Of a stretch of 64,000 nt of DNA, positions 14,298 to 62,899 are shown piece by piece. Below the pieces are notes generated by a model. It made no database searches and was not told where the DNA came from. It saw only the letters and a list, made by a program, of their open reading frames with translations. The DNA lies in NCBI GenBank assembly GCA_947034885.2, contig OX344758.2:2854501-2918500 (forward strand), read 5' to 3'. Both the position numbers and the translations under genes were made by a program. This DNA comes from Thuidium tamariscinum (lineage: Eukaryota > Streptophyta > Bryopsida > Hypnales > Thuidiaceae). Numbering within the stretch: position 1 is the first letter of the stretch; the number at the start of each line of letters is the position of its first letter.

Positions 14298-16143
14298 ATG
14301 GCAGCGGGCGTCCATTGTCGCAAGAAACCTGTCTCTGTGTCTCTGTCCTCAATGTGGTTGCGGGGAATCGAAACCGGCGTGATCGGGGTTATCGGTAAGT
14401 TCTTTCTCTCCTGATTCGGCTTTTGATTCTCTTTCCGATGAAACTGGTGCGGTAGTGGAGCAGGAAGACGGGAGATGCATGGTCTGGAGAAGGTATGTAC
14501 TAAAGATCTCGCAATTCATCGAAAGACGTCTTGGCTTGACACGTCCTTGTGATTGATCTGAGCTCCTTCACTTGCTTGAAAATTTTACCGTTGAATTTAC
14601 GTGAGATCGATTTGATGAAGTCCTTTTTTCCACGAGGATTTTAAGACAGTGATCTGTCGCCTTGCATCCTGTAGAGGTGCGTTGATGAGTGTCCCTGGGC
14701 TATTTCAAAGGATCTGCTTCATTTCATCTTCTCTCTTGGTTCAGAGCTTGAGAATATTGATATTAGGAAAGACTCGGAGGTGAAGGTAAGAGTATGCGTT
14801 TGGATCTTGAGCTGCACAACCTCTATTTCAGCATATTATTATAAACAGAGCTTCCGATTACTGCCGTTTTATTCGTATTGAAATTTGGATCTCTTGAAAC
14901 GATTCGCTGAGCTTTGTAGCGGTTTTCGATTATTGAGAATCACTGAGATTAACGCCCTTGCTTCTGAATTCCTGTTTGGATTTCTGTGTCTGTACGGTAA
15001 CCTACATATCCTGGCATTTATGGTCTATGAGTTAGTAAAATTTCGGCTTTCGCGGAGGTTGGCATGCTTATTTCTTTGGTGCAGCTTTGCAGAATTCGCT
15101 TTTGGGACTGTAACCAGAAAGTAGTGAAATTTGTGCTCATTATTGGAACTTTGAGCACCGGTACGGAGATTGAAAATAATTGGCATCAAATATTTTATTG
15201 GAACTAGTTGCGGAGCTCTGTAATGCTCAGACCCTTGAAGCAACATCAAGATCCGCGTCAAGAAAGTCATCCATGGCTGCGTTTTTATCCTCGGACTTTG
15301 ATTCGCGGACCTCGAATGCTATGAAGGATGAAGCCCTCCAGGGGAATTCAGAATGCGCAAGTGATGATGGGTTTGTGTACATTCACTTGACCTCGTCACA
15401 AAAAGACTCAGCTATGGCATCCCTATCCACAATATTTCAATCGGAGAAAGCCATTGGTGCGTGTATTTCCCTCCCTACAAGCAAATTTGTTTCTCTTCAT
15501 AATAAAAACATTCAATTCTTTCAAATTTATGTTAAATGTCTTCAGTTGGCACTACATTTGAATTTCAATTAAGCTGTAAATTTTTCTGAGTGAGTTATTT
15601 ACTTTATGCTGACGAGGGTGAGTCTATTTCACGGAAATTCCAAATGTTGTGCATGTCACGAAAACCGCTGAAAGTATCAAGTCGCCTATTCTTGCAGAGG
15701 GCGATTGGGTTGCATTGTCCTCACCTGCCATGAAAGTGCAGGCTCTAGATGTCTCGAATTCTCCCCCGGCAGGTCTGTCTGAAGAGAACCCTGCAAATAC
15801 TGTAGTCAGAGGTTTTGAAGTCTCTAGGACTTTACGTTACAAGAATTTGATAACAACTTCGACAGATCCTGCCCCAGATATTGACCCCACTAAAAGAGAG
15901 GTGAGGATCTTACTATTCCTAATTTTCTATTCAATCTGCATTTTTCATGATTTTTTGCATGAGATGTTATGAGTTGCATGAACTGATGTGACTATTCTCA
16001 TTGCCGTGGTAACTATAACTTTTGTGCAGACGTATTTATCTGAAAAAGAATTTGGATCCTTGTTTGGTATGAGCAAATCACAATTCTACGCCTTACCGAA
16101 ATGGAAGCAAGCACAGCGAAAACTAGACCTTGACCTATTTTGA
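14298..16143 (+). CDS. Villin-type linker plus headpiece protein lacking gelsolin repeats, about 259 aa
   Basis: The last exon encodes a textbook villin headpiece (residues 223-259): TYLSEKEFGSLFGMSKSQF followed by ALPKWKQAQRKLDLDLF and a stop. It has the core Phe residues, the LPKWKQ actin-binding segment and the terminal LF. Proposed exons: 14298-14394, 14464-14492, 14675-14785, 15231-15456, 15698-15900 and 16030-16143, all in agreeing phase. Exons 4 and 5 (80-222) are Ser-rich and contain RKSSMAAF and KDSAMASLSTIF, like the Ala/Ser-rich linker of plant villins, and end DIDPTKRE just before the headpiece, as in plant villins. Full plant villins have six gelsolin repeats and about 900 residues; no gelsolin repeat is seen here. 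Exon 3 (starting RCVDECPWAISKDLLHF) is unrecognised. Headpieces bind F-actin, so an actin-binding role is inferred. Exons 4-6 are well supported; exons 1-3 and the start are tentative. It may instead be a partial duplicate of a villin gene. Confidence 0.65.
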
Positions 16144-16648: not shown

Positions 16649-17656
16649 TCATCTTCTGTATTCTGTATCACGCTTCTTGCGGGGCTTCTTGTGAGCCACG
16701 ACTTCGGTGTCTTCACTTGATACTGCCATGTCCATAGTTTGCGTGCGCTTCCGATTCTGATCGTTCAGGTAGGGTAACGGTGGCGGACTGTCACCTTCGA
16801 GGTTAAAGGACGGATCAATGTGTTCTTTGATGATGGCAATCATTCTGGCAGCTTTCTTGGTCCTATGTGCACCGATGGAGTTTCCACAGCGCATCACCCA
16901 TGCCCTGCAATTAGAACCTTCCTCTACTACCTCGCATTCACATCTATGAACTGACGGTTTGCTGATGTAGAAGTCTCGTATGCGATAGGGCACGTCGTTG
17001 AAAAGAGCCAAGCCCTTCCTTACCTCAATGGTAATCTTCACATCGAGCCGCTTCCAGTACACCAATTTGTGCTTCTCCAGGTGGGCCTTGATGTCCTCCA
17101 AATACTCCTTCTCATGAAACCGCTTCCGATCCAATTCCCCGATGAACTCACACAATTCTGGCGACTTGAATTTCAACATCTCTGTGTTCACGAGTAGGTT
17201 AGGTAGGACCTCCACAAGACCGCGCTTCGTGTCAGGAGTGATCGTCGTCGCCAACGCAACGTGTCTGCTCCATGCCCGAAACGCGGAGAATTGTACACCC
17301 TGAGATGACAACCCAAAGAGAGCCTGAAGCCAACGATCGTCTAGCCAATTCTCTTCGCTAGGCAGCGTTGCGCCAAGAATTTCGGAAACTTTCTGGCAAG
17401 CACCGGATTCTAGTACCTCCTGGCGTGGAGAAGACAAGACTATTGCCGGAGAGACTTGGTGCATATCCTTCTCCTTCTCGAAAATGACGGAGCTTCCGCC
17501 AGTGACCTCTCTGGTCCATGACTGCAACACATGAAACTCTACACCGTGCGTGGACAGCCCGAAAAGAGCCGCAAGCCAATTCTCGTCAAGCCAATTCGTG
17601 ACTGTAGGCAGCCCTTTCCCTAAAACTTTCAACATTTCGTTGCTTTTTGATGCCAT
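16649..17656 (-). CDS. Orphan two-repeat protein A, intronless, 335 aa
   Basis: I do not recognise the family. One uninterrupted frame starts at the ATG at 17656 (MASKSNEM); an in-frame TTG three codons upstream is not a plausible start. Two internal repeats are clear: NWLDENWLAALFGLSTHGVE (21-40, continuing to 51) and NWLDDRWLQALFGLSSQGVQ (103-122, continuing to 133). Each has the pattern NWLD..WL.ALFGLS..GV.F....W. A conserved middle follows (FKSPELCEF, then YLEDIKAHLEKHK and WKRLDVKITI, about 163-210). Next is a Cys-containing stretch (CECEVVEEGSNC, then MRCGNSIGAH) and KKAARMIAIIKEHIDP. Basic clusters NRKR (301-304) and HKKPRKKR (322-329) look like nuclear localisation signals. The gene converges on the villin-like gene and has close relatives at 18.9-19.8 and 21.9-23.0 kb. 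Function is unknown; nuclear location is inferred only. Confidence 0.8.
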   Translation of the reverse strand: MASKSNEMLKVLGKGLPTVTNWLDENWLAALFGLSTHGVEFHVLQSWTREVTGGSSVIFEKEKDMHQVSPAIVLSSPRQEVLESGACQKVSEILGATLPSEENWLDDRWLQALFGLSSQGVQFSAFRAWSRHVALATTITPDTKRGLVEVLPNLLVNTEMLKFKSPELCEFIGELDRKRFHEKEYLEDIKAHLEKHKLVYWKRLDVKITIEVRKGLALFNDVPYRIRDFYISKPSVHRCECEVVEEGSNCRAWVMRCGNSIGAHRTKKAARMIAIIKEHIDPSFNLEGDSPPPLPYLNDQNRKRTQTMDMAVSSEDTEVVAHKKPRKKRDTEYRR

Positions 17657-17790
17657 GGGTTGCAAAATTTAAGAGACTAACGTAACGACCTTGGTGACCA
17701 ACTGCGAGTGCTTTGTGAACAGGCTGAGTAACTTGTTTTTTGAAGGCCAAGGCCACCAAGGTCGACTGCTGGAGAAAGGGGTGGAAAGTA

Positions 17791-17826
17791 GTGGAATTCA
17801 AAGCCGCATTAAGGCCTTGGCGGCAG
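17791..17826 (-). promoter_or_regulatory. Conserved upstream block of orphan gene A
   Basis: GGAATTCAAAGCC followed by AAGGCCTTGGCGGC lies about 135-170 bases upstream of the ATG. Versions of the same block precede the other two family members at 19951-19980 and 23141-23170. It may be a shared core promoter or 5' leader, or simply duplicated flank. Confidence 0.5.
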
Positions 17827-18208
17827 AGTAAATTGCACGATCATAAATCAACGCATTAACTTTGGATGAGGCACTCAAGTGTGGACAAGAAATTATACAA
17901 TAACTGACCAGAAGATATGGAGGCCTCCAATCCTTGGGGCATATACCGAGAAATTGACCTCTCAAAGTTTGAGAGGGAGGTGGAAGGTCAGTAGACTCAT
18001 TACCGCTACTAGAATTCAATGGTATTAGGGGCGGCAGGGTTGAGAGGGTAGGGTGATCAAATCAATTTCCTTAATTTCGGATAAAAACAGAGCTTGTGTA
18101 AGCTTTTCGAGCGCAAGTGTGCGGTCATTTTGAAAACATCCCTATGCCCTCTTCTGCGTGATTTGTAATGTGTTTCAGCTGACCAGACAATCTTCATTAA
18201 CTCTGCAG

Positions 18209-18320
18209 ATGTATTGAATCGAGGAAGAATTTGGATTCTGTCTTATTTAGAATGAGGAAATCACAATTTGATTCTATGCATCACCGAAGTAGAAGCAAAC
18301 AAAATGACAACTGGACCTCT
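18209..18320 (+). pseudogene. Decayed copy of the villin headpiece exon (copy two)
   Basis: After an acceptor-like CTCTGCAG, the sequence follows the headpiece exon at 16030-16143: GAGGAAGAATTTGGATTCTG aligns with GAAAAAGAATTTGGATCCTT, then ATGAGGAAATCACAATTTGA with ATGAGCAAATCACAATTCTA. In-frame stops (TGA as third codon, later TAG) destroy the frame. No upstream villin exons were found next to it. It is a relic of the segment duplication that produced orphan gene B. Confidence 0.75.
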
Positions 18321-18901
18321 CCAGATAAGTAACAAGACTTCCCGATATGTTGAATCTCCATCCGTTTTTCTGTAGAATAAACAGTAGTTTCGTGCCTACA
18401 CTTTACAGTTTTCCAACAATCAATACTATGTCTGGTCGTTGGTAAAGAGCCCATATCAAGAATAAGTAGTAAGCAAAAATCTTTCGCAATTTAGTATGAA
18501 GTCTAGATACTGCCTAGTAAGAAATAATACAAGACTTCCAATTGTGTTAACTGCATTCAAATGATGATGGGACAGAATTCAACGTGAATCCCAAGGAAGA
18601 AAGATTGGCCAGAATGTCATGCCCGAAAAGCTCAATTTCAATCACAAAAGGTGCCATACCAAACCTTCTGAGGAGTGTTCATCACTATAAAGCTCCTCAA
18701 TGAACTAATGTGACACTGAAAACTCCCAAGTAAGAGCAGGGTCGCCGAATGCCAGGAAGAACTGCAGAAAACCTCTGGCACCTAACCTTCTCCTAACTTG
18801 CTAATGTCACTACTAGTATAATACTGGTATTTTCCAACAAGTTAGTACATGTTTTGAACAGTCAATCTGTCTACTTAAGTTCTAATAGTTGCCTTTGTCA
18901 T
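18321..18901. other. Spacer between relic headpiece exon and orphan pseudogene B
   Basis: Non-coding. It aligns in patches with 16144-16648 (the GTCGTTGGTA block, CTTTCGCAA, AATCACAA and TGTTCATCACTA), so it is the duplicated convergent 3' region. Confidence 0.5.
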
Positions 18902-19795
18902 TCAGCTTCGAAAGTAGAACATGCCTCTTATATTCCTCTGGCGAGCTAGCGGTGCCGGGCTGTCGTCGTTGGGGTCAAAGCACGGATCAATGTGTCTCTT
19001 GACGATGGCAGTCATTCTGGCAACTTTCTTGCGCCCATGAACACCGATGGAGTTTCCACATCGCATCACCCGTGGCTTGCAATTAGAACCCTCCTCAACA
19101 ACATCGCAACAACTTCCCTGAAAATATGGACTGACACTGTCGTAGAGCTCTCGGACACGTTGCGGCACGCCACTCACACCCAACCTGGCCTGAATGGTAA
19201 TCGTCACATCCAGTCGCCTCCAGTACAGCAATCGGTGTTTCTCCAAGTGAGCTTTGATATCCTCCAAGTACTTCCTCTCATAGAATCGACTCCGATCCAA
19301 GCCTCCGACATACCTCGCCAACTCTGGCGACTTGAATCTCAATGCTTCATCATCCAGGAGTAGGTTGGGCAGGCTCTCAACAAGACCTCGCGGGACCGAC
19401 ATCCAACCCACCGCAGCTTGGCTCCATGACCGAAACGCACCGAACTGTACACCTGTGGCGGACAATTCAAAGAGAGCCTGAAGCCAGTGATCGTCCAGCC
19501 AATTCTCTCGGGTCGGCATTGTTCTACCAAGCAGATCGTCCAGAAAAGTCCCTCGGGTCAGCACTTCTAAATCACCTACTTTGGAATTCTCCAGGCGAGG
19601 CTTCTTGGACGGCTTCTGTTCCTCGGCGGATGGGGTCCCGCCAGCGACTTCTCTAGCCCATGTCTGAAGCTCATGAAACTCTATACCGATTCTGGACAAC
19701 TCAAACAGAGCCAGCAACCAGTTGGCGTCTTTCCAATTCGCCACTGTCGGTAGCTCCGCTCCCTAGACTCTGGATACACTACGTACTGAAGCCAT
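18902..19795 (-). pseudogene. Orphan family copy B, broken by an early stop
   Basis: This is homologous to orphan genes A and C along its length: repeat one NWKDANWLLALFELSRIGIE, repeat two NWLDDHWLQALFELSATGVQ, then the YLEDIKAHLEKH middle and the CDVVEEGSNC...MRCGNSIG Cys region. The ancestral ATG is at 19793-19795 (MASVRSVSRV), but codon 11 is TAG (19763-19765), where A has a Leu codon. Downstream the frame stays open to a TGA at 18902-18904. The only start-like triplet before repeat one is GTG; the first usable ATG would delete repeat one. The C-terminal tail has also lost the basic cluster seen in A and C. It is most likely a young pseudogene, though a shorter protein or stop readthrough cannot be excluded. 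Confidence 0.75.
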
Positions 19796-19950
19796 TGAGA
19801 GGCAAAAAATTGACAAAGAAAAAGAGTGAAAGTGCGTGTGCAAGCGCTGAAAGAGTGTGTAAGTGCAGTGGATGTGAGTAACTACCTGATACTGTAAACG
19901 TTATGTAGGCCTAGAAGATCGATCGAGATCGAGATGGCGGAGGTACGTCC

Positions 19951-19980
19951 TCGAATTCAAAGCCAAAACGCTTCGGCGGC
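19951..19980 (-). promoter_or_regulatory. Conserved upstream block of orphan copy B
   Basis: CGAATTCAAAGCC followed by CGCTTCGGCGGC matches the blocks upstream of A and C, at a similar distance (about 155-185 bases) from the ancestral ATG. Confidence 0.45.
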
Positions 19981-20523
19981 GCGCGGGGCTGAGGGTGGGC
20001 TGATAAATATGACTGCCTTCAAATTTGGTGATAGTGTTCTCAATTTATAATTTACAATGATGAGAGAATGATGCAGTTACTGAATGGAGAGACGGAGCAT
20101 TTGTGCGAGCGGTCGTGCATTCAGCTATTTCAGACAAGACCAAGGAAGTGGGGTGGTAAATTCAGGCATTCAATGCTTTAATAAGAGTCGCATCACTGAG
20201 AAATCATTCTTTCTTTGCAATCCTGTGGATTGTGATCTTAACTTGTAAGGAGACGGCGGAACCCCTGTGAAATTAAAGACTTCAATTTTATTGAGGTATT
20301 TAGAGATTCAGGTCGGTCTTTCATCAAATCACTAGCCTGCCAGGTACCTTTGGAACGATATGAATTAATATAGCAATGTGTATTAAAGCCTTGTTTGGAG
20401 CTTGTGCAAGTCATCATATTTGAGTGCAATTGTGTGCAGTTAATTGGGAAAGATCTCTTCTGTTTGATGGGTAACTAATTTGTTGAAGTTGATCTGATGA
20501 ATTTGTGGCTTAATCTTGTGCAG

Positions 20524-20640
20524 ACGTGTTTCTGTGGAGAAGAGATTGGATCCCTGTTTTGTATGAGCAAATCATAATTCTTATGCATTATTGAAGTGGA
20601 AGAAAACACTGCGAGTACAGATCTGCTGAACGGTACCTTC
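20524..20640 (+). pseudogene. Decayed copy of the villin headpiece exon (copy three)
   Basis: After CTTGTGCAG, as at the true exon, the sequence aligns with 16030-16143: GAGATTGGATCCCTGTTTTG against GAATTTGGATCCTTGTTTGG, then GTATGAGCAAATCA in both, and TGAAGTGGAAG against CGAAATGGAAG. The frame is lost to a TAA after the AAATCA and to indels. Homology continues into the original 3' flank (CACCATCA...). It sits upstream of, and convergent with, orphan gene C. Confidence 0.8.
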
Positions 20641-21947
20641 ATGCTTCCTCGAGTTCGCTTTGTGTGCCTCCACCATCACTGTATCCTCCCGGGAGTTTTA
20701 TTTTCAATTTTTCAAGGTACGCTACGCTGATTTATTTACCTATTACCGACGGCGCTAAATTAATGTCCCTACAAAAATTTCCTTTTGCGTGAAGATTAGA
20801 GAGTTATATTTTGTAATATTTTAGTCTACACTAGTCTGCACAATGTGAACTAAATAGTGTGACCTAGGTAGATTAGTTTCAAACGCACTACTGTCGGTAA
20901 TAAGACTGGTAAATGAGAGTATAATAACTTGTTGGAGTGAGAGACTTTTTCACATCCATAATTATGGAGACTACTGTAGAAACAAGTCATCCAAATTTAT
21001 GTAAATTCATCCAAATGTGGCAATATTAAGTATCCTTCTTAGGATGATTCTTGGAGATTTCATTGATTAAAACATTGGAAAATGTTTGCAAAATTCTCCA
21101 CAATATTTCTTTGAAAATTGGGTAGTGCAAATATCTGAAAAAAAACACAATCCTTGTAAAATAAGATGTAAGTATCTACGACTAAATTTCTAGACCTCAT
21201 GGCTTTGAAATTTTACAAAACTCCAACCAAAATCTATTAATTTACTTGACACCTTTACATCACTTCAACATGTTTTACATCATCCTTTTGTTGTGTTTCT
21301 TATAGAAAACCACATGTAGCACAAAGGAATTGATCATTTAGTAGTAATGAAGTTGGGGGATATTTGAAGGTTACGGTTGCAACAATGAGAATCCATGGAA
21401 AATATCTGTTGGGTCTGTAACTTACTGTGTCTTGGGAATACATTTGGCCACTTACATGGGGGTTACGTTATTAAATTAATAGTGAACAACCTAATGACTG
21501 GTAAGAGGTTAAATTTTATAACCGAAGTTAAGCTACATTTTTCAATCCAAAGATGAACACCTTTGAAGCAGAAAAGCAAAGAGGATCCATTTCAATGAGC
21601 CAACTCCACGTTCTCATTCACATTACATTACAAAGCTGCCACCAAAAATATTACCTGTTGGCATGAAACCTGCGCCCTAGCTAGACTGATACTGTACAAA
21701 CTTCGATCTCCTGAAAACATTCATCTGAATTCAATGATGTCAACTGAACCCAGGAAGAACCTTTGGCCACATTTCAACATCAAACTCAAAAATCTCATCT
21801 ACAAGAACAAACCTCTTCCAAAACTCTTGCAGACTGTTTCTCCCCAAAACCACGACCTTCACACGAACTGAAAGAACTGGGCTTGCTCAGCTCTGGTGAG
21901 AATCACGTTCAATTCACGTTCAATCTTCGTCAATTCAAGTTCGGTAC
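20641..21947. other. Non-coding spacer between relic exon three and orphan gene C
   Basis: This is AT-rich over 20.75-21.5 kb with no coding signal. The last 400 bases again resemble the 3' flank of orphan gene A (ACAAAGCTGCCACC at about 21630 against ACAAAGCTGCGACC near 16503). The spacer is about 800 bases longer than in the other copies, so extra sequence was probably inserted here. Confidence 0.5.
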
Positions 21948-22964
21948 CTACACACGCCTCTTGACAGCCACGACTTCGGCGTCTTCACTTGAAATTGCGC
22001 TGTTCACCTTCACCGATTGCATTCGTTTCCTCTTCCGATTGTTCAGGTAAGGCGGCGGTGCCGGACTGTCGTCGTCAGGATCAAAGCACGGATCTATGTG
22101 CTCCTTGATGATGGCAATCATTCTGGCAGCTTTCTTGATCCCATGCGCACCAATCGAATTTCCACATCGCATCACCCATGGCTTGCAATTCGAACCTGAT
22201 TCCACAAGTTCGCAATCACGCCCATGAACCAACGGATTGCTGTTGTAAAACTCGCGGATTCGTTGCGGGACGCCGTTGTCTGTCAAGCTCAGCCTGGCCT
22301 GAATGGAAATCGTCACATCCAGTCGCTTCCAGAATAGAAACTTGTGATTCTCCAGGTGAGCCTTGATTTCCTCCAAATACTCTTTGTTGTAGAACCGAGT
22401 GGGGTCCAATCCTGCGACGTAATGAGCAAGCTCGGGCGCCTTGAACTTCAACGCTTCCTTGTTCTGCAGCAGGTTGGGTAGAATCTCCAAAAGGCCACGT
22501 TTCCTGGAAGATGAGGAGTCCACGTTGAGAGTGATGAACGGCTTCCCCTCCATCGCCGCGACGTTGAAGCTCCATGTTCGAAACGCGGAGAATTGTACAC
22601 CCCGAGAGGACAACCCAAAGAGATTCTGCAGCCACTGCTGGTCCAGCCAATTATCTCTGGTAGGGCTCGTTGTGCCAAGAATTTTAGAAATTCCCAACGC
22701 ACCGGACTCCAGTGCCTCCGACGAAGGAAGCTTGACAAGAGGCAGCTCTTGCAAGTGCAAGTCGTGAAGCTCCTGGTCAAGAGGGGTTGGGATCTCACTG
22801 GCAACAGTTCTAGCCCACGACTGGAACGCATGGAATGATACGCCATGTAAGGACAAACCAAAGAGAGCAACCAGCCAATTCTCGTCCAGCCAGTTCGTCT
22901 CTGTCGGTAGCCCTGTGCCAAGAATTCTCCATAAATCCCTGTCGCTACTACTTCCTGAAGCCAT
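21948..22964 (-). CDS. Orphan two-repeat protein C, intronless, 338 aa
   Basis: Close relative of orphan A and also of unrecognised family. Translation starts at the ATG at 22964 (MASGSSSDRD); an upstream in-frame GTG is not a plant start. The repeats are NWLDENWLVALFGLSLHGVS (24-43) and NWLDQQWLQNLFGLSSRGVQ (105-124). The middle block reads FKAPELAHYVAGLDPTRF, then YLEEIKAHLENHK and FWKRLDVTISI. The Cys block is CELVESGSNC...VMRCGNSIGAH (about 251-274), followed by KKAARMIAIIKEHIDPCF and an acidic DPDDDS. Basic tails RKRKR (310-314) and KRRV (end) could direct nuclear import. The most conserved parts in A, B and C are the repeats, the IKAHLE helix and the Cys block, which marks them as the functional core. 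The gene lies head-to-tail with the NAC-beta gene, about 470 bases downstream of that gene's stop. Confidence 0.8.
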   Translation of the reverse strand: MASGSSSDRDLWRILGTGLPTETNWLDENWLVALFGLSLHGVSFHAFQSWARTVASEIPTPLDQELHDLHLQELPLVKLPSSEALESGALGISKILGTTSPTRDNWLDQQWLQNLFGLSSRGVQFSAFRTWSFNVAAMEGKPFITLNVDSSSSRKRGLLEILPNLLQNKEALKFKAPELAHYVAGLDPTRFYNKEYLEEIKAHLENHKFLFWKRLDVTISIQARLSLTDNGVPQRIREFYNSNPLVHGRDCELVESGSNCKPWVMRCGNSIGAHGIKKAARMIAIIKEHIDPCFDPDDDSPAPPPYLNNRKRKRMQSVKVNSAISSEDAEVVAVKRRV

Positions 22965-23140: not shown

Positions 23141-23170
23141 GGAATTCAAAGCTACAAAGCCTTGGCGGCG
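23141..23170 (-). promoter_or_regulatory. Conserved upstream block of orphan gene C
   Basis: GGAATTCAAAGC then AAAGCCTTGGCGGCG lies 175-205 bases upstream of the ATG, matching the blocks of A and B. It is the shared part of three otherwise diverged upstream regions. Confidence 0.5.
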
Positions 23171-23436
23171 GGGCAGTAATAAATGCACGCATTAGGTTTG
23201 GATAGTACTGTTATAGCACTCAAAACATAATAAAACATGTTATAATACAAAGAACCATTGTGCATACATTCAATTCGGACAATTCCAGGAAAGTGGGTCT
23301 GGGAAATTCATGCATTAAAATGCATTAATAAGAGTCGCAAAACTGTGCGCACTGACACCAGTTACAGAGCAGTCAAGGGGTTGCTGAATTGGCCTTCGTT
23401 ACTTCGTTACCTAGAGTAAGTTATATCAAATTTTCC

Positions 23437-24277
23437 CTACTTGGTGGCCTCCTGCTTGGCCGCTTCCTCGAATGTCTCTCCTTCTACTAACTCCGGGACG
23501 TCATCGTCTTCCTCCTCGGGAATCTCGCCCAGGTTGTCCTTCTTCTGGAACTGCTGTGCAAGTTTCTTCAGATTCGCCAAGTTGTCAGGGCCTAGCTGGT
23601 TGATAATGCTAGGCAGAATATCCTGAAGCTTCTTCGTTTGCGAAGGTCCGCTCACCACCCACGTGTTCGCCGCAATCGAAGCTTGCACTGCAGCAATCAC
23701 AACCATATCAATAGACCGAATTGATTGAAAAGGATTCGATCAAAATTGAGAAATTGTCTGCCGTGTTACAGAAAAGAAGAAGAGGGGTAACAGTGGATCA
23801 CCTTTGGGGTTCACGAAATGGATCACAGATTCATCCTGGAAGATGTTGACCTCTTCAATCCCTGGAATGACGTTCACTCCAAGTCTCTTCAACGTGCTCT
23901 GCAGCCTCTTGTCATCCGTTGTGGTCGTCTTGTGGACGGCTTTCTTCTTCCTGTCAAACGAAATGAAAGTACATGAGAGACATGCAAGAACATATGCTCT
24001 CACAAGCAAGAATCCATGGCTAAACTTGCAGGCGTGATCACGAGACGTACAGTATAAGGTCTGCGGAGAGAATATACCGGAGTCCCTCACTTATACCAAC
24101 GAAAGAATACAAGGTAGTGAAGGTACGAAGAAGAAGAAGAATCGTGAGGTTGAAGATGGCAGACAAGAAAGTAGAAAAGCTTGCTAAGCATCAAATTATC
24201 AGTACAAACCTCCTGACACTGCCCTTTCCACCAGTGCGCACGGCACTGGCCATCTTCATCAGCTTCTCCCTATTCAT
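23437..24277 (-). CDS. BTF3: Nascent polypeptide-associated complex subunit beta (BTF3), 155 aa
   Basis: It forms the ribosome-bound NAC heterodimer with the alpha subunit, shielding new chains at the exit tunnel; plant BTF3 is also reported in transcription. Coding exons on the minus strand: 24277-24210, 23950-23802 and 23687-23437, with agreeing phases. The protein opens [20 protein letters not shown] and the basic [15 protein letters not shown] ribosome-binding motif follows. The NAC domain contains [34 protein letters not shown] and [12 protein letters not shown]. The [19 protein letters not shown] helix precedes an acidic tail ([10 protein letters not shown]). Length is normal for plant BTF3. 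A donor-like AAG/GTACGT at 24858/24857 upstream suggests a 5' UTR exon spliced to the coding first exon. Confidence 0.95.
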
Positions 24278-34198: not shown

Positions 34199-37100
34199 TC
34201 ATGCAATGTGCGGTTTGGCTACTGATGAAGAATGTAGAGCTCTGCACTGAGGTCGAACAGTAGCACTCCTCATCAGTTTCTCACCATTGGACCAAGAAAA
34301 TTGCACAGATTTTAGGCCTACTGGTTGTAGATTGATCAATGGAAGGCTGTCAGGGAGTTTATGACTGATGAAGTTAGCGTACGATAATAGCCTTGCGGGA
34401 ATGAGTGAGATGATGTTGGAATTTGAGAGTCCAGCGCCCAAGAAAAGTGATAAAATTGCAGCAAATCGGGGCTCGTCCAGTCCAACTTCTTCGTTAAGAT
34501 ATCCTTGCATCTAAGCACACGAGAACGACAACAGTGTTTCCTCATCAACAACTTAAACAACTCATTGTGTTGCTTAGTGTAAAAAACGATGTCTCGGGGA
34601 ACATAGCACACAAGCCCATTGCGTTGAGATAGCCTTAAGGAAACAAGAGAACAGGAAATGAACCCTCTAATGACCACGTCAGGACAGAGAAATTCGTAGC
34701 AACTCGGTAGATCTATCCACCAGCAAGGGCTTCGTCCTAAATCAAGTTTTGAGAGAAATTTTCGTCGATTGAAATTTAATAAGATAAAAAAAAGATAAGC
34801 TAAAACACGAAGCCTACCTCCTGAAGCAACTCTTGAGTAATGCATTCGGTGTAAGTAGGATGAGCCTGACCCAAAACGCTAAAAGTAAGAATAACACCCT
34901 CTTCGTCCTGTAGGAAACAGAAACTAACAAGTAAATTCCTGAAAAAGCGACAGCAATAGACAAATGTCCATAAAACGCACTGAGTTACAAACAAAAAATG
35001 GAGTAAAACCTTGCAATGCGTGAAAGAGAGGTGGCCGCAAAAGGGTAGAAATTCTGCAAATAGATAGAAAATAGGAGGGCAGGTTGTTCAGCAGACCTCA
35101 CGATGCCGCTCTAAGCTGGAAAGGAGTGAGCGCACAATCGAATGGAAAGTGCTGAAGCTTGGCAGTAGGGACGAAGCCAGTAAGTTGCGGCCACCCTTTC
35201 GCATTTCTGGACTTGTATCCTCCAGCACACTTAAAAACTGCAGCCCACCATCCAAAGGAATATTGAGAGACGAAATAAACAAGGAAAATCGTATATAAGA
35301 AAACCGTTAATTCCCTGGGAGCCCTCGTGATACGGTCTGACTGGTCCAGACCTTATCACGCGATGACTGGTTGATAACGGCAGAGAGATGGGACACGCTC
35401 CCTAGATGGCATGCATTAAGAATAATGATAACTGCGCTAGATCAAGATCAATTTTGAAGTTTCCAGTTTGTAAAAATAAAGCCAGATCTTACCAAATGAA
35501 GATGTTGGTCATGCACCGACAGATAACCCGCAGTTGCGAGTTGTGAAAGAGCATGCATAGCTCGCATCCTCACAACTTCCACCTCTTCATTCAGCATATC
35601 GAGGAGAAGACTTGCTGCACCGAAAACCATTTTCTGGCACATGCACGCCAGACTTGCCAAGGCTTCAATCGCAACACATCGTACCTGCAGGAAGGTGAAT
35701 AAGACTAGCTGTCAAGAAGACTTGCAAATATTTAAAACAATACAATGCCCCCTACTGTAGCGTCCCTTCCGATCAAACAGACACGGCTCGGTTTGCACAC
35801 TGGACGATGCGACAACTACGATATTCTACTTCACCATTTCAAGCGTTCAGCAAGCACTCAGTCCACCGTAAGTTGCTAGGGCATTGTGAAAGAATTCACC
35901 TCAAAAAATTCATCTTCCAGGCCGTGCACAAATGCACCAGCAGCACTGGCATCCAAAAGATTGGCACTTTCCTCAAACTTGGGTGAGCCAGTATCACCGT
36001 CTCTCGATGCATTTACAGAAACATCCGTCTCTTTAGGAGCCTTTGCCACTTTCTTGGTCAATGTTTGAAGTAACACGCTCTCAGGTATCCTCGTTGCCTC
36101 GCCAAGGACACGGAAAGCCGACTCCCTCACCCTCATGTTCATGTCTGTCACCGTGGTGCAAACCTGGTAGAATAAAAATTTCCAAAAAAATTCCTGTTAT
36201 TTCCTGAAAAAAAGTTTAAAAGCAGCTGCAGGACATAAACAGAATCCCCATGGAAGGCAACCTGAGCACTGTCTAGCTACGAAAATAAACTAACATATAT
36301 GAACTCTTAATTGATAACAAAGAGTCTCACTGTCAGCATTCAGCGTGTACCGATAACTCCTTATCATCTTCGATAGTGGAGCTATGTTAGGTAACCAAAA
36401 GAGCTATTTTCAAGTCCATCATAAGAACCTGTAAACATTCATGTGTACCTGTAAAAATGCTTCCGTGCGTTGCTTCGACGATGGCTCATCCTTCACGTCC
36501 ACGCGGCTCCTCATCCACAACCCCACCTGCGAGGAGCAAATCGTTTTACCTATGTCCATGGCGTGACAGTGACCAATTCAATTGATCCTTTTGCGAAAGC
36601 AAGAAAACTCAGCCGGGGCCAAATCTAGAACCACCTCAATCAGTGAAGAACATCTCATGTATTGGCCAAAACTTCAAATAAAATTAAACAAAATACCCAT
36701 AATGAGGACCTATTCAAAGCTGCAAATGCAAAAACGAAGCCCAAGAATGCGCCTCTCGGTAGACAGCAATAAAATGACACTTGATTTAGCTGAGAAAACT
36801 GACAAAGCTCAAAGTACAGGTAAACAGATGTGAAAACTCATAAACTAGAGAAAGAAGAAACGGAGCTGACCATTTCTATGGCAGCGATGCGCACAGATTC
36901 GAAGGAATCCCTGAATAAGCTAGTGGCCATCTTGCAACACTCACTTGTCAACTTGTATCCCTTCGTGTGCAGCTTTATCAGCCCCCTTAGAGCCGTCTCT
37001 CTCACAGATGGATACGGATCCTTCATGTAACTCAGTAATGAAGACAGAAGCATTTCCCCTGCTTTCAAGTGATCACCTGATTTCACGTCCAAGTCCACAC

Positions 37101-37893
37101 CACTTCCCTGGACTGAACCAGAGGCTGGTAGACAATAATTTCCAACGCGCCTCCTCTTTGCATTCCCCTCATTCTCATCAGCATTCTCCAAATTCTCCTG
37201 CACGCTCTCCACAAGTAACCGTAGCACCAAAGCTCGCACTTTGGGGTTACTGCTTCTCAGATATCCCCGAACTAACCCTCCAACCGACTCCCATGTCACA
37301 ACAGCCTCCGTATTCTCCCCGATTTTCAACAAAGAATGCAGAACCTGCACTTGCAACGAACTCTCCACACGGTCTTTACCACCAAGATACGCATGAAGCA
37401 CCTCCGCTACCCACTTCGCAATCGCCAGGTTGCCATCCACACACCACTTCTCCTTCTTCCGTTGTAAAGGGCTCGTGGTCGAAGAAACTAAACCATCTCT
37501 TGTCTGCAGATTCGTCCTCTCCTCCGAAACCTTATCAATACAAGCACAAAGCTCATGGTGCAGAACAGAGCCAGTGACAAGCGGGACGAGCGCCACATCG
37601 ACTAAAACCCTAATCAGACTCTGAACAAGAAACGGCTCTTCCTCTTTCCAGAGCCGGAATTTCAAAGCGTGGAAAAGCTCCTCCCTGGACTTCAACTCCC
37701 TCGTCAAATCCAAGTGGGAAGAAATGGAGATAAGAGACTCCCGGCGGATGTTAGGCTGCGGATGCTCAAGGAGCGAGAGCTGGCCTTGCAGAATTGTGAC
37801 GAGAGCGGGGCTTTCTCCTTCGCCGTGAAACCTAAACTTGGCATCCACAGAGCTCACAATCTCTGCAGCGTCGGTGGCATTCTCGATCTCCAT
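34199..37893 (-). CDS. INTS4/SIEL-like HEAT-repeat protein, 7 exons, 699 aa
   Basis: Related to Integrator complex subunit 4 and to Arabidopsis SIEL, an endosome-associated partner of SHORT-ROOT in cell-to-cell movement. Minus-strand exons: 37893-36871, 36526-36449, 36163-35900, 35684-35493, 35237-35097, 34907-34818 and 34510-34199, all in phase. Exon 1 (1-341) contains helical HEAT pairs, including DPYPSVRETALRGLIKLHTK followed by LFRDSFESVRIAAIEM. The family hallmark GAFVHGLEDEFFE is at 443-455, followed by VRCVAIEALASLACM and VRMRAMHALSQLATAGYL. The acidic linker DVSVNASRDGDTGSPKFEES (exon 3) is variable in the family. The protein ends after the EEVGLDEPRFAAILSLFLG region and a tail with WSNGEKLMRSATV, making it some 200 residues shorter than the human and Arabidopsis proteins. 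I see no further coding exon in the 2 kb beyond the stop, so the C-terminal domain appears absent. The last intron boundary is less certain. Confidence 0.88.
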
Positions 37894-38332
37894 TGCAGCA
37901 GCTGCATGGCTAATTGCGGCAAAATGATAATTGTAAGTTCGAAGGCTCTCCAGAAATCATTGCTGATAAAGGAAAAAACCTAGGTTATGATTCTGGAAGT
38001 GGCGAAGCTTTCTGAAATCTTTGCGGAGCTTCGACGATCGGAGCAAGTCGGCGTCGGGGTCGGAGTGACGGAGCTCCAGCCAGTCTCCCTGCACCGACTT
38101 CCATCCAAGGACTTCCTGCAAATACTTTTGAATGTAAGCTTATATTTGAATTTCAGTGGATATTTTCTTATAGTTGAAACTAGATGAATGAAAGGTCGGG
38201 AATTGGATGATATGTCACTCGAAATGGATGAAATTGGTCAGATGGATTGCCATCCAAGGAATATCAGCATCTACAAAAAGGGTGTTGAGTAAAGAGACTG
38301 AGGACTAAAAAAAAAAGTCTATTAATCAATCT
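37894..38332. promoter_or_regulatory. Promoter/leader of the INTS4-like gene and flank
   Basis: This is balanced DNA turning AT-rich after about 38.2 kb. It presumably carries the promoter of the minus-strand INTS4-like gene. No other gene recognised. Confidence 0.4.
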
Positions 38333-40822: not shown

Positions 40823-42755
40823 TGGTTGCCACAATATTTAAACAACTCTAGGGTCTCCTTTGGGGGACCCTTTAGTGAAACTCAAATTGGAATAACAAAT
40901 AAATTAAACCAAGGCTAGGGGGGCAATTTCCACACCACTTTTCCTTTGAGGATCTGTTGTTTGAGTTGTGAGATCTAGGACGAAAGCTTCGCCGTCTTGG
41001 AGGGTTATCCTCAAATTCTGGCAAAATTTTGCAAGAACTTGTTAATGATGAGTTTCCGGAGCTCAAATCAACTCCCAAAAGATCCTCACTTGGGTCACAA
41101 TTCAATGGCTAGGCCTGAGGGGGATTTTCGATAAACCAATCCAGGTTGTAAATCCACCCGAAGAGACTAGTCACAAAGAATTATGATATCACAGATTGCA
41201 AAAGACGCTTACTTGAACTCCAAGAGACTAGCAATGTCTTAAATAATGAGTTTTAAACACCAAGAGCGGTTTTAAAGCACACCATCCAAACAATTGCAAA
41301 TATGGAAAAAAGCCTTGAAGGTGTACCCGCAAGGTTGTTGAAGATCTTGAACCTTGAATGCCAAAGGAGCCCAAGGGTGGTTGTAAGATGGTGTAGACTA
41401 GAAGAAAATGGACTAGAATGAGAATGATGTAGAATGGTATTGAGAAAAATGGTGCGAAATGATAATAATGATGGTGTTGGTATTGAATTGTGTAGTTGTA
41501 ATGGTGTAATGGTAGTGGTAAGGGTTGTAAAGTGAAGGGAGGGGGAGGCCTTTTATACATTTCCAAGGCCTCCTCCCCCCTCAAATTACTTGCTAAGTAA
41601 ACTAAAAAGTCAACTTTAACCTTAAAAATTCTACACTACTGCTGTGATTACTCTATCTTTTGGAGAATAGGTCCGATTGCCAAACAGACAGCGCCAATGG
41701 CTTCAGAAGACCCAAATTAGTCTAAAGGAACCCCAACCCCTTACTCTCGAAACCTAAATGCGCCCAAAAGCTAACACTTACGACCTGGTAAAAAGAGTGG
41801 AAAATCTATCTTTTGGAATTGATTTTTCCCAAAGGTTTTGACTAGCCAGAGTTGTCGGGAATGTCCAAGAATGTTAGGAAAGAATCCAAGTTGACTCAAA
41901 TCAGACACAGTATGTCCTCTGCACGCCGGTCAACCTACCAAGATTTCAGTAAAACCTTGGAAAGTCATTGCCGCTGCTGATTCTGGTACTTGCCGCTGTC
42001 AGAATGTCTTGAAATTTGGCGAGACGCTTATTTATGCTAAAACATGTTATCCTAATTTTTAGTGGGATTTTACCATCACTGTGGAATTTTCTATGAATTT
42101 CCAATTGCCGGTAAAAGTAGTTGACTTCCCATGGAGTCATTTCCGTAATCCAAAAAATTACAAAACTTTTAGGGGATCTTCTAGGAAGCCCCCTAATGAC
42201 AAGTGCAAAGTTTTGCTAGAAACATATACTGTCTGGTTAAAGTAGAAATTGCACTAGGGCGGAATTAATTCCTCCGGGGAGGAATCATTCCCGTACCAGA
42301 GAATCTCCACGAGTTGAGTGAATTCCTCCGGGGAGGAATCATTCCCGTACAAGGGAATCTCTATGAGTTAGCTTCGCTGTGACGCTCTTGAGTGACTACC
42401 GGAATCCCATGACTTTCACTTAGCCAAATTCTGCTAAGATTCTTCTTGAAAAGTCCGATAGGGCTTGTCTTGACACTTTTGCACTAAATTGTCTTTCAAA
42501 TATTAGTTCGTGCTATCTCATGGTAACCGTGTAATATTATGCCTAATCACCTGATAAGATGTAGAACTTGGCTCTAAAGAGTCTTTTAAGGTACTCTGGC
42601 GTAATTCTAACCAATTCCTCATCATTACCGGGAATTGTACCAATCCTACTACAAACACTCTTTTTAGTTGATTTTTAACCATAATAACCCTAAATATGAG
42701 CAATAAGCGAAAAAAAGAAAAATCCGAGGCATGAGTGACAATGACGGGGCTCACA
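40823..42755 (-). repeat. LTR (about 1.93 kb), minus orientation
   Basis: Starts TGTGAGCCCCGTCATTGTC (reading the minus strand from 42755) and ends near ...GGCAACCA at 40823, giving TG...CA ends. It matches 61037-62899 through most of its length, for example the segment translating as TPWEVN.FYRQLEIHRKFH, which is LTR DNA rather than a gene. At 42264-42360 a 54-bp unit with the near-palindrome TTCCTCCGGGGAGGAA is duplicated; the other LTR has it once. Confidence 0.6.
41552..41557 (-). promoter_or_regulatory. LTR TATA box inside an inverted repeat
   Basis: On the minus strand ATGTATAAAAGG is bracketed by GGAGGCCT upstream and AGGCCTCC downstream. The arrangement is identical in the LTR at 61.0-62.9 kb. 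It probably marks the U3 promoter, with transcription starting 25-35 bases downstream. Confidence 0.5.
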
Positions 42756-51400: not shown

Positions 51401-51802
51401 TCATGCCTCCATCATTTGTCCAGATCTTCAAAATTATCAAACTTCTTTTACACTTGCTCAGAGTTTAATGTGTGGAATTTCGAAACCTGCTATTGCCTCT
51501 TTTCTTCGTATGATTTCTTCGTGTTGCGTCGGATTTCATCTGTTTATCTGCTTGCATCGATTTTGTCTTAATATAGTGAAACCATTTTTCAAGTTTGCGA
51601 TGTTCAGTTCTCCTTTTCATTTATCTGGATTCCACAACGTCAATTCCTCTGCATTTGCGCAGAAGCTGGGGTTGCAAGCCAAACCTTGCCGAAGCTACCA
51701 TCTAGTCATACTTAACTGTAAGCTCTGTTGGAAAGTCCTACTCTGAGCCGAGGCAGACGTACAATTGAGAAGGCAGGAAAGTAGAAAGACGGTTTCGTGA
51801 GA
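51401..51802 (+). promoter_or_regulatory. Presumed 5' UTR of the kinase gene
   Basis: T-rich, gene-like DNA between the tandem repeats and the ATG. The short frames here show no domain. The transcription start was not identified. Confidence 0.35.
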
Positions 51803-54800
51803 ATGGATTCTATCCAGAGCATGGCGAGTTGCTCTTCATCAACTGTGCCTTCCTCTGAACAGGCAAGCCCTTTCATTTCTCAGACTGAAATAGAGATGGA
51901 GTCCTCGAAAGCTCGTCACTGGAGCCAACTGGGTTATCCCACAACTGATTCGGAGTTGTCAGCGGCGACCAACCTTAGTTACTTTGCTTTGCTAAAAGAA
52001 GATCCTCAATGGGGTCGTTTCTTCACGGACTTTGAGACACTTGAGGTGGGTGCGAAAATCAGCGGAGGGGCTCAAGCTGACATTTATGAAGCTCGCAACA
52101 CACCCGCTGGTCCTTTCAATTTGGTGGTGAAGGTGATGAAGGGAGATGCTCCTCTCAAAGCTTTTCAAGCGCAGTGGCCCATTGGAATGTTGTCTGCTCG
52201 TTCCAAGCATAAACATTTATATGATTTGCCGTTGATAACAATTTTGGGAGGAACGGTGTTACGTGATGAGAGGTTGCGTGGTCGATTTGCGTTTGTAATG
52301 TATCGGCGTTGGGGAGATTTGCGTCTGTTGATTGATCGGCGAATGAAACAAGAGCACGGTACACATGGTCCTTTCCCAATCGACGAAGCCATTCACTTGA
52401 TGTTGAGTATAGCTGAGCATATGGAGATGCTCCACAATAAGCATGATATAATTCATCGTGATTTGAAAGCATCAAATGTGCTTGTATGGGGAGAATTCGG
52501 AGAGGACATAAGCCTTGCTGCTCCTCCTAACCAAGTGGCGAGGATAGGATCAGTTGTTGCTGATTTTGAGTGCTCTGTGGGAGTTTTGGGGACCGGGTTT
52601 TGGAGGGCACCTGAAATATTGGAGCAGTTGAAGGCTAAAGTGCCTAGGTCAGAAGTTCAGTTTACACGTGCATCAGATGTGTATAGCTATGGCATGACTT
52701 GCTTTGAGATTCTCACAGGTTGCATTCCATATGATGGCCTTGAAGGTGAAGATATGATATCTCAAATTTTGAAAGGTCGACGCCCAACTTTGCCACATAA
52801 ATTGCCCGAGTTCGTTAAATACATCATAGTTGGTTGTTGGCATTCTGATCCATTAGAGAGGCCGACCTTTTCAGACATATTCATGGCTCTAAAGCTGAAG
52901 AGAGGGCCTAATCCAGTGAGTGTTGTGATGGACAACACATGTGAAGGAGGTACAAGTATTGTGAAGGTATGCAAGTGACAAGCCTTTGCAGTTTAGTAGG
53001 GCTTCATGTGAAGAGGACATTGTTGATTGAATATTTTGAGATTTATTACTGGATTGTTCATATTCAAATCTTTAATTGATTAATGTTTTCAATGTTTCAA
53101 ACTTTTGTAATTAGGTTTCAGGATCCTTAGGGGAAGTTTTTTTTCCTATTTTTTACTTAGAGTAGAGTTGGACTAAGTCCTATTGTTTGAATTTACTTTG
53201 TAATGACTTTGTGAGGAATCAATGGTATAGAGTTTGTTTTGTTTTAGTTTGGGACTTGTGCATTTACCTTCATTGTATATTTTGCCTTGTCTTGGAGTTT
53301 TAGTTTGGGCAAACTTGGACTCTTTATTGTTTAGCTTGTATTTCCTTTTTTTAAAATAAATCCATGGTACTTTGTCTTGTTTCCCACTAGAGACTACAAA
53401 TTTATTTGAAATAAAGGTAGTATGTTTTATCTCATCACTATCTCTTTGGAGCATACAATATTTTTGTACATTTTTATTTTGTTGTAGAGAGTTACAGATA
53501 GTGTGACAATCTCCCTAATTGTTGATATTTTAATATTGTGACTTACAAAATATTGTGGTAGACATTTGGAATTCATTTGTTGGATTCTCTATAGTGTCAT
53601 TATAGTGACAAATTGATTGTAACTTCATTGTTTCTTTTGTCACCAACATATTTTGTGAGACATTCTATGGCTTGTAAATTAGTGTACCCTATTTTAATAT
53701 TTACGTAAATGTAGATTTTTTTTAATAGAGTAATGGAAGTAAAGTGTTCTAACATGTCTTCTAATATAAGGAACATATTTTATTCTAATCAAGTTTATAA
53801 CTAAACATGTTTTGTTGAACATAACCCAATATGGATGCAGGTAGAACAATGGATCAATCCTCAACCGTTGACTTTGTTTGAAGTCATACAAAAATTGATG
53901 GATATGGACCTATTAGTCTTGAAGGCTTCTGACTCCTCTTCAACAACAATGATTATGCAATGTGAGTTGAGTTTTTGACTGTCGTGCTAATTGCTAATAC
54001 CATGAGCTTGAAAATCTATTGTTGTTGCCTTATCATTACATTAGTGAGGATTCTTTGCAGTAGATATATTCTTTGAATCTTGTATCTTGACATTTGTCAT
54101 TGATATGTTGAGCCACAGGTTTTGAGGTGACTGATCGCAAAGGAAAGAAAGTTGTGAATGACAAGTCTATTGCAAAAATCACAAAGGTCAACATCAAGAT
54201 TGTACAATCTTACGTTTCTTGTTTGTACTGGTATGCTTTAGACTTTGTAGAATGTTTATGAGTTGTTTGGAATGATAGATCAAGGATTACTAATTAGAAT
54301 ATTGTCTATTGTGCAGGTTTTAATTTTACCAGTAAAGATGAAATGGATCAATGAGAGTGTGGGGATTTCTATCAATAGAAATCCTGGTTTGCAGGTGCAT
54401 GTCATAGAGGGCATTGCTGAGCCAAGCACAATTCTTCTTAGGAACCTCTTTTTACTCTTGGTTGCGATTAATTTTCGAGTTCACTCAGCTGGATGTTGGA
54501 CTTGTGAGGGTCGATTGGAGTTTGTCATATTTGTGGAAGGCCTAAGAACAGATACCTTGTTGTGGAAACTTGGACGTGAATTTGGTTGTGAACTTGGATG
54601 TGAACTTGGACGTGAATTTGGATGTGAACTTGGACCTTCTTCAAGATCTTCTGGACGTTTCAAGATAGTTGTTGACAGAGTTGCAGTTGAAGAAATTTCC
54701 CACTTGAGTAAGCGTTTGCAAAATTTGAAGTCTATGAATTTGACCCTTCCTCGCAGCTCATCAAGCATTCGTGTTTATCAACAAAAGAAACGTTCTTTTT

Positions 54801-61036: not shown

Positions 61037-62899
61037 TGTGAGTCCCGTCATTGTCACTCAGGCCTTAGATTTTTCTTTTTTTCACTTATTGCTCATATTT
61101 AGGGTCATTATGGTTAAAAATCAACTAAAAAGAGTGCTCAAAGTAGGATTGATACAATTTCCGCTAATGATGGAGAATTGGGTATAATTATTCTGGAGTA
61201 TCTTAAAAGACTCCTTAGAGCCAATTTCTACGTCTTATTAGGGGATTAGACATGATATTACGCAATTACCAAGAAATTGCACTAGCAAATATTCAAGATG
61301 CAACTTAGCACAAAAGCATTAAGGCAACCCTTATCGGAATACTTGACAAGGGTCCAGGAAGATTGGGCTCCGATTGGCAACCACGGGAGTCCGACAGTCT
61401 CCTACGAGCATCACGGCGAAGCCAACTGGTGGAGATTCCCTTGTACAGGAATGATTCCTCCCCGGAGGAATTAATTCCGCTATAGTACAATTTTTACTTC
61501 GTTTAGACAGTGTAGGTTTTTAGCGAAACTTTGCACTTGTCATTAGGGGAATTCCTAGAAGATCCCCTAATAGTTTCATAATTTTCTGGATTACGGAATT
61601 GACTCCATGGGAAGTCAACCGCTTTTACCGGCAATTGGAAATTCATAGAAAATTCCACGGTGATGGTAAAATCCCACTAAAAATTAGGATAGTATGTTTT
61701 AGCATAAATAAGCGTCCCGCCAAATTTCAAGACATTCTGACATTGACAAGTACCAGAATTGGCAACGGCAACAAGTTTGAATGGTTTTACCAAAATTCTT
61801 GCGAGTTGACCGGCGTACGGGGAGTATACGGAGTCTGATTTGAGTCAACTTAGACTCTTTTCCAATGTTCTTGGACCTTCCCGACAACCCTGGATAGTCA
61901 AAACCTTTGGGAAAAATCAATTCCAAAAGATAGATTTTCCACCCTTTTTACCGGTTCGTAAATGTTAGCTTTTAAGCGCAATTAGGCTCTGGGAGTAAGG
62001 GATAGGGGTTCCCTTAGGCTAATTTGGGTCTTCTGGAGCTAATGACGCTGTCCGTTTTGTAATCGAGCCATTTCTCCAAAAGTTAGAGTAGCCACAGTAG
62101 TAGGGTAGATTTTTGAATTGTTAAATTGGGTTTATCTTAGTTAGTTTAGAACGTAACTTGAGGGGGGAGGAGGCCTTGGAAATGTATAAAAGGCCTCCCC
62201 CTCCCCTCATTTCACACCTCTTATCATTTTCATATCTCAAACTTCTATTCCATTTTCTCTAAAATCTCATTTCATACATCAAACACTCACAATCATTACC
62301 ATCTTCTATTGCCATTTCAAACCTTCTTTTATTGTCATTGATTGCTATATTGCAAGTTTAAGGACGTGTGTTGCTACCTTCACTCTATTCCAACCTTGTT
62401 GGTATTTTCTAAACCTCCTTTGCTATTACAAGTCTTCAATTATTGAAGCATTTGTTGTGGTTTTATTGGAAATCCTTGTGTCCTCTTGGGGGTCCTCCTA
62501 ACTCCTTCCAGGGTCTTTTGTACTAGTCATCTTTGTGATTCTTGTGAGATTGAAATCATAATCCTTCGTGATTAGTCTCTTCGGGGAATTTACAGTTTAG
62601 ATAGGCTTATTGAGAATTCCCCCCGGGCCTAACCGTTGAATTGTGATCCACAAGAAACCGTGTTTAGTGGAAACTCTAACTCCTTAGAACTCCTTGGAAG
62701 GCAACCCCTTGCCAAATTTTCCAGGAATCAAGGGTAAAATTCCTTAGACGGCGAAGCTATCTCCAATTTTTTAAGGATTTTAATAATTTTTTATCAATTA
62801 TTCGCTCAACGGCGGAGCTTTGACTTTCCTAAGAATAATTCCGTGTTTGTTTTGTTAAAAGGGTCCCCAATTGGAGACCCAAAGTATTGGCGAGCAACA
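61037..62899 (+). repeat. LTR (about 1.86 kb), plus orientation
   Basis: Starts TGTGAGTCCCGTCATTGTC and ends near GGCGAGCAACA, i.e. TG...CA. It is aligned with the minus-strand LTR 40823-42755. Both end with AAGGGTCCCC..GGAGACCC before the final block. Confidence 0.6.
62185..62190 (+). promoter_or_regulatory. LTR TATA box
   Basis: GTATAAAAGG sits inside GGAGGCCT...AGGCCTCC, exactly as in the other LTR, which supports a real U3 promoter. Confidence 0.5.

Follow-up and report, generated by a model that had tools for sequence, protein, structure and literature searches.

An apparently lineage-restricted, intron-free gene family with a doubled W/ALFGLS repeat at a single locus of Thuidium tamariscinum

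Introduction

Three described systems come closest to the genes reported here: taxon-restricted (orphan) tandem gene clusters, which form a general recognised class; CCCH zinc fingers, whose spacing is C-x8-C-x5-C-x3-H; and the double-stranded RNA-binding domain (dsRBD, PF00035). We compare with them a locus in a 64,000-nucleotide stretch of the Thuidium tamariscinum genome (assembly GCA_947034885.2, contig OX344758.2, positions 2,854,501 to 2,918,500 of the forward strand), hereafter the window, in whose numbering all positions are given. A preliminary description had pointed there to a protein family that it did not recognise, with A and C as its full-length members; a third gene, B, lies between them. 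Our analysis indicates that A/B/C are a small intron-free family at one locus, apparently lineage-restricted, with A and C held by purifying selection and the three copies attributable to a chromosomal segment having been duplicated in tandem. We tentatively favour a role in the nucleus for their products.

Results

Genes A (16649..17656) and C (21948..22964) lie on the reverse strand with gene B (18902..19795, also reverse) positioned between them. Counted from a common ATG (MAS...), A spans 335 codons and C, the copy adjoining a NAC-domain gene, 338 codons, each followed by a stop; both frames are intact, intron-free and uninterrupted, in agreement with the preliminary description of A and C as full-length and intronless, and the two proteins share 59% identity. 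A fourth member was not found inside the window, the remaining tblastn matches having E values of at least 0.31. Gene B starts at an in-frame ATG (19795) and meets a single in-frame TAG at codon 11 (19765-19763), downstream of which the frame is open to 18902 and ends in a shortened, divergent C-terminal tail; the genome-wide search likewise gives one internal TAG. An intron removing this TAG was considered by eye and rejected, as it would have to be about 40 bases long and would alter the reading frame.

Each of the three proteins carries a 37-residue repeat twice (LPT..NWLD.NWL.ALFGLS..GV.F..F..W), as had been noticed from the sequence. The two copies, R1 and R2, lie on the reverse strand at 17501..17611 (beginning LPTVTNWLDENWLAALFGLS) and 17255..17365 in A, 19643..19753 and 19409..19519 in B, and 22800..22910 and 22557..22667 in C. 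Their local alignment scores (133 in A, 106 in B and 135 in C) are far above the best of 500 shuffles each (45, 48 and 45), and 13 of the 37 positions are invariant across all six repeats. Since R1-R1 pairs (23-28 shared residues of 37) and R2-R2 pairs (23-26) are closer than R1 and R2 of the same gene (16-21), the internal W/ALFGLS duplication looks older than the copying of the genes. The best-conserved region is the C-terminal domain, which is about 145 residues long and has a mean column identity of 81% compared with 69% over the whole three-protein alignment (reverse strand, 16784..17224 in A, 18956..19390 in B and 22062..22499 in C). Within it lies a Cys/His block, C-x8-C-x6-C-x6-H, at 16865..16936 (CEVVEEGSNCRAWVMRCGNSIGAH) in A, 19037..19108 in B and 22143..22214 in C, all on the reverse strand, whose spacing is invariant in the three proteins. 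The preliminary description had singled out this Cys block together with MRCGNSIG, which is likewise invariant, and an IKAHLE helix with a WKRLDV strand; IKAHLE is indeed the same in all three, and WKRLDV reads WRRLDV in B. The basic tails that it reported are present at the ends of A (KKPR and KKR) and C (RKRK and KRR).

The Nei-Gojobori method (NG86) gave 0.31 nonsynonymous (dN) and 0.83 synonymous (dS) substitutions per site for A-C. In a separate NG86 count, the ratio dN/dS (omega, with 95% bootstrap interval) was 0.37 (0.27-0.52) for A-C, 0.43 (0.31-0.60) for A-B and 0.40 (0.29-0.55) for B-C. None of the 200 neutral simulations run for each pair reached so low a ratio; their minima were 0.48, 0.51 and 0.58, respectively, under a simple model with a mean of 0.80-0.81 rather than 1. 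Other estimators agree with NG86 for A-C (0.40 by the Yang-Nielsen method, YN00, and 0.38 by maximum likelihood, ML) and for B-C (0.29 and 0.39). The A-C ratio, set beforehand as a check on drift, is well below 1 (about 0.37) and so not drift-like; A and C are held by purifying selection. Constraint is distributed unevenly along the proteins, with dN/dS of 0.22-0.47 in the C-terminal domain and no constraint on the linker between R1 and R2 (ratios of 1.1 and 1.05 in the two computable pairs, the third yielding no dS). Because B is not clearly less constrained than A and C, its stop may be recent, or its product may still be made from a later start. The A-C dS also differs between the repeats, being 0.30 in R2 vs 2.5 in R1; the low value in R2 is possibly a trace of gene conversion, or chance given some 40 codons.

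The history of the locus is still legible in its flanks. The convergent neighbour of A is a villin gene, whose last coding exon, encoding the villin headpiece, lies at 16030..16140 on the forward strand (Pfam VHP, E 7.6e-16, and villin matches in the PDB); two open frames preceding it have no Pfam match. Decayed copies of this exon stand on the forward strand downstream of B (18204..18318, 72% identity to the living exon) and downstream of C (20516..20614, 81% identity), with the CAG acceptor still legible. Directly upstream of C, on the reverse strand, is a NAC-domain gene, presumably NAC-beta, with the domain spread over two open frames (23437-24090; Pfam E 9.7e-12 and 0.046, the second falling below the Pfam cut-off). 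A piece of its 3' flank (23260..23345, reverse strand) recurs upstream of B (20115..20198, reverse strand) at 78% identity. This flank copy occurs at B only, the upstream region of A giving just a short shared element in the same comparison. Because the villin last exon (at B and C) and the NAC 3' flank (at B) were copied along with the units, we read the amplification as a DNA-level tandem duplication of a chromosome piece that took in the last villin exon and extended toward the 3' flank of the NAC gene, and the same remnants suggest that C occupies the original NAC side. The preliminary description had proposed retroposition or transfer before local amplification; for the amplification itself, the tandem-duplication model, which is testable, can replace retroposition.

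The short shared element, GCCGCCRARGC-N6..9-GCTTTGAATTC, precedes all three ATGs on the reverse strand. It starts 168 bp before the ATG of A (17794..17824, in the form GCCGCCRARGC-N9-GCTTTGAATTC), 185 bp before that of B (19953..19980, N6) and 205 bp before that of C (23142..23169, N6). Across the whole assembly the pattern has three exact matches, all at the A/B/C locus, with none for the reversed control; the pattern was derived from these same three sites, and its uniqueness serves only to exclude a common repeat. That it is unchanged at a dS of about 0.8 suggests that the element is functional.

We searched for relatives in the host assembly (363,211,507 bases in 19 contigs), using a six-frame search that scores the best candidates only. 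With full-length C or its C-terminal domain as query, the A/B/C locus alone was found. Repeat R2 of A matched all six repeats and, at chance level (E 1.31), two further places, both on contig C7. One of these is a fragment with in-frame stops bearing FSAFRAWSR, judged to be chance, beside a stretch that we take to be cullin-like.

HMMER searches for a known domain over A/B/C gave only chance-level matches in Pfam, NCBIfam, PHROGs and PDB sequences, the last queried with protein C singly and with whole-family, C-terminal and repeat profiles; this accords with the initial failure to recognise a family. Matches to A alone, at chance level, were EnfR (E 0.05), a DUF1233 excisionase (E 0.076, on R1), a putative transcriptional regulator (E 0.092), NpwBP (E 0.096) and a PHROG HNH endonuclease (E 0.16), and none of A's weak Pfam or NCBIfam matches recurs in B or C. 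Also set aside as chance were Med11 against C (E 0.15), TIM54 against the C-terminal profile (E 0.24) and Irc6 against the repeat profile (E 0.25); the whole-family profile matched no PDB sequence. Scans gated by short exact peptide patterns confirmed 0 of 37, 2 and 71 pattern stretches in IMG/VR and 0 of 93 and 592 in GTDB contigs, and tblastn against phages gave one record (E 0.6, 34% covered) that is no relative. A bacterial, archaeal or viral homologue was thus not found in IMG/VR, GTDB contigs, PHROGs or phages. The family is apparently lineage-restricted in the sense of being absent from these collections, which apart from Pfam and the PDB are prokaryotic or viral. Peptide strings from the proteins match no paper, and the part of the literature returned by general topic searches held none on the family.

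Elsewhere in the window, a protein kinase frame on the forward strand (51785-52978) is uninterrupted for 397 codons from stop to stop (Pfam PK_Tyr_Ser-Thr, E 9.3e-29), and a HEAT-repeat frame on the reverse strand (36838-37956; 372 codons from stop to stop) resembles an INTS4/SIEL-type protein. An inverted pair of about 1.2 kb (41519-42755 and 61037-62223), whose match consists of two segments with 86% and 80% identity, is perhaps a transposable element.

Discussion

We tentatively propose that A/B/C encode a nuclear regulator that binds nucleic acid or associates with chromatin. A gene in which the W/ALFGLS repeat was apparently already doubled sat between the NAC-domain gene and the convergent villin gene, and tandem duplication of this interval produced three copies, of which A and C are intact under purifying selection and B has its early stop, with the upstream element kept in all. 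The basic tail would carry the A and C proteins into the nucleus, an import that these residue clusters make plausible. The two W-repeats could be helical hairpins with a partner or DNA as their target. The conserved C-terminal domain, putatively alpha/beta and possibly metal-organised through its CCCH residues, would contact nucleic acid or chromatin, the family thereby acting as a regulator.

Several observations weigh against this picture. The libraries searched show no homology to nucleic-acid-binding families, and the calculated isoelectric points of the C-terminal domain (8.6 in A, 9.0 in B and 7.2 in C) are not strongly basic. Protein B lacks the basic tail, its own being short and divergent, though KKPR occurs in its linker. 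AlphaFold2, run on the three-sequence alignment, returned a mean predicted local distance difference test score (pLDDT) of 39.9 and a predicted template-modelling score of 0.26, with no residue reaching 70, too low for the model to be relied on; pLDDT is below 50 across residues 207-338, the region that bears on the question of an alpha-beta-beta-beta-alpha fold. What hint the model does give is in favour of the proposal, each repeat showing two helices and the C-terminal end running strand, strand, helix. For A-B, YN00 gives a higher ratio (0.41/0.68 = 0.60) and the ML estimate of dS is unsettled (11.5). Finally, R1 of C and R2 of A share 24 of 37 residues, as close as some R1-R1 pairs, which runs counter to an internal duplication older than the genes.

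Nearly as likely as the nuclear regulator is a nuclear or cytoplasmic adaptor, in which the W-repeats and the C-terminal domain would bind proteins only and make no contact with nucleic acid. The conserved repeats are hydrophobic and tryptophan-rich and the C-terminal domain of C is near-neutral, as an adaptor might have it, while the H..KK.AR stretch, kept in all three proteins, and the basic tails of A and C tell against it.

As to the founder, we consider it unlikely to have arisen by horizontal transfer or by retrocopying from a parent with introns. The genes are intron-free, whereas the neighbouring NAC domain is split over two open frames and in-frame stops precede the villin headpiece exon; yet the six-frame search, scoring the best candidates, found no intron-bearing parent elsewhere in the 363-Mb assembly, and no prokaryotic or viral donor was found in GTDB contigs or IMG/VR. 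The GC content at third codon positions of A, B and C (0.58-0.61) also falls within the range of their neighbours (NAC exon 0.65, HEAT open reading frame 0.56, kinase 0.43). This origin keeps its standing because, at a dS of about 0.8, traces left long ago, among them the poly(A) remnant and target-site duplication of a retrogene, are expected to have faded. Less probable is a domesticated mobile-element or viral gene, an origin with which intron-free genes at one locus and the lack of cellular relatives among the searches would agree; neither dispersed copies in the 363 Mb nor element relatives in IMG/VR, PHROGs or phages were found, third-position composition is that of the neighbourhood, and tandem duplication accounts for the copying.

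A reading of the C-terminal domain as a dsRBD that has diverged strongly, with CELVESGSNC.PWVMRC...IGAH..KKAARMIAIIKEH as beta-beta-beta-alpha, is very doubtful. The likeness was seen by eye, and hhalign places G.H..KK.AR on the G.G.SKK.AK of five dsRBDs in the expected register, but with a probability of 0.3-0.6%, and column-shuffled controls did equally well in 50 of 200 cases for the whole domain and 16 of 200 for its C-terminal part. Pfam gave no match at an E limit of 10, the HMMER filters discarding most matches above about 0.1, and with hhalign scores no better than those of shuffles we abandoned the dsRBD as a claim. Non-functional, drifting open reading frames are scarcely credible, despite the premature stop in B, with dN/dS under all neutral simulations and with A and C open for 335 and 338 codons at a dS of about 0.8; drift is already unlikely for A and C, and for B less settled.

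A lineage-restricted family is in itself an already known kind of thing, and the interest of the putative nuclear regulator lies in its C-terminal domain, for which no relatives were identified in the libraries searched. In its boldest form, which we rate as quite unlikely, the proposal would make this domain a new metal-stabilised nucleic-acid-binding fold of one bryophyte lineage, the doubled W/ALFGLS hairpin a new helix-turn-helix-like module, and the family a set of lineage-specific transcription or chromatin factors early in expansion. If the fold is new, the locus would offer a clean test case for how lineage-restricted genes gain structured, selected domains; otherwise, it adds another plant gene family to be annotated.

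Set beside the described systems, A/B/C share with CCCH zinc fingers the order of three cysteines followed by one histidine and a first spacing of eight, and differ from them in the remaining spacing (C-x8-C-x6-C-x6-H) and in having no CCCH match in Pfam scans. With the dsRBD they have in common the place and pattern of G.H..KK.AR beside a predicted C-terminal helix, although the domain does not match the Pfam family profile and profile comparison does no better than shuffles. The closest parallel is with taxon-restricted tandem clusters: here too there are few copies at one locus, tandem amplification, one copy with a stop and no relatives found in databases. From these clusters A/B/C are set apart by a well-conserved domain, an internal duplication that appears older than the copies, and an invariant Cys/His block.

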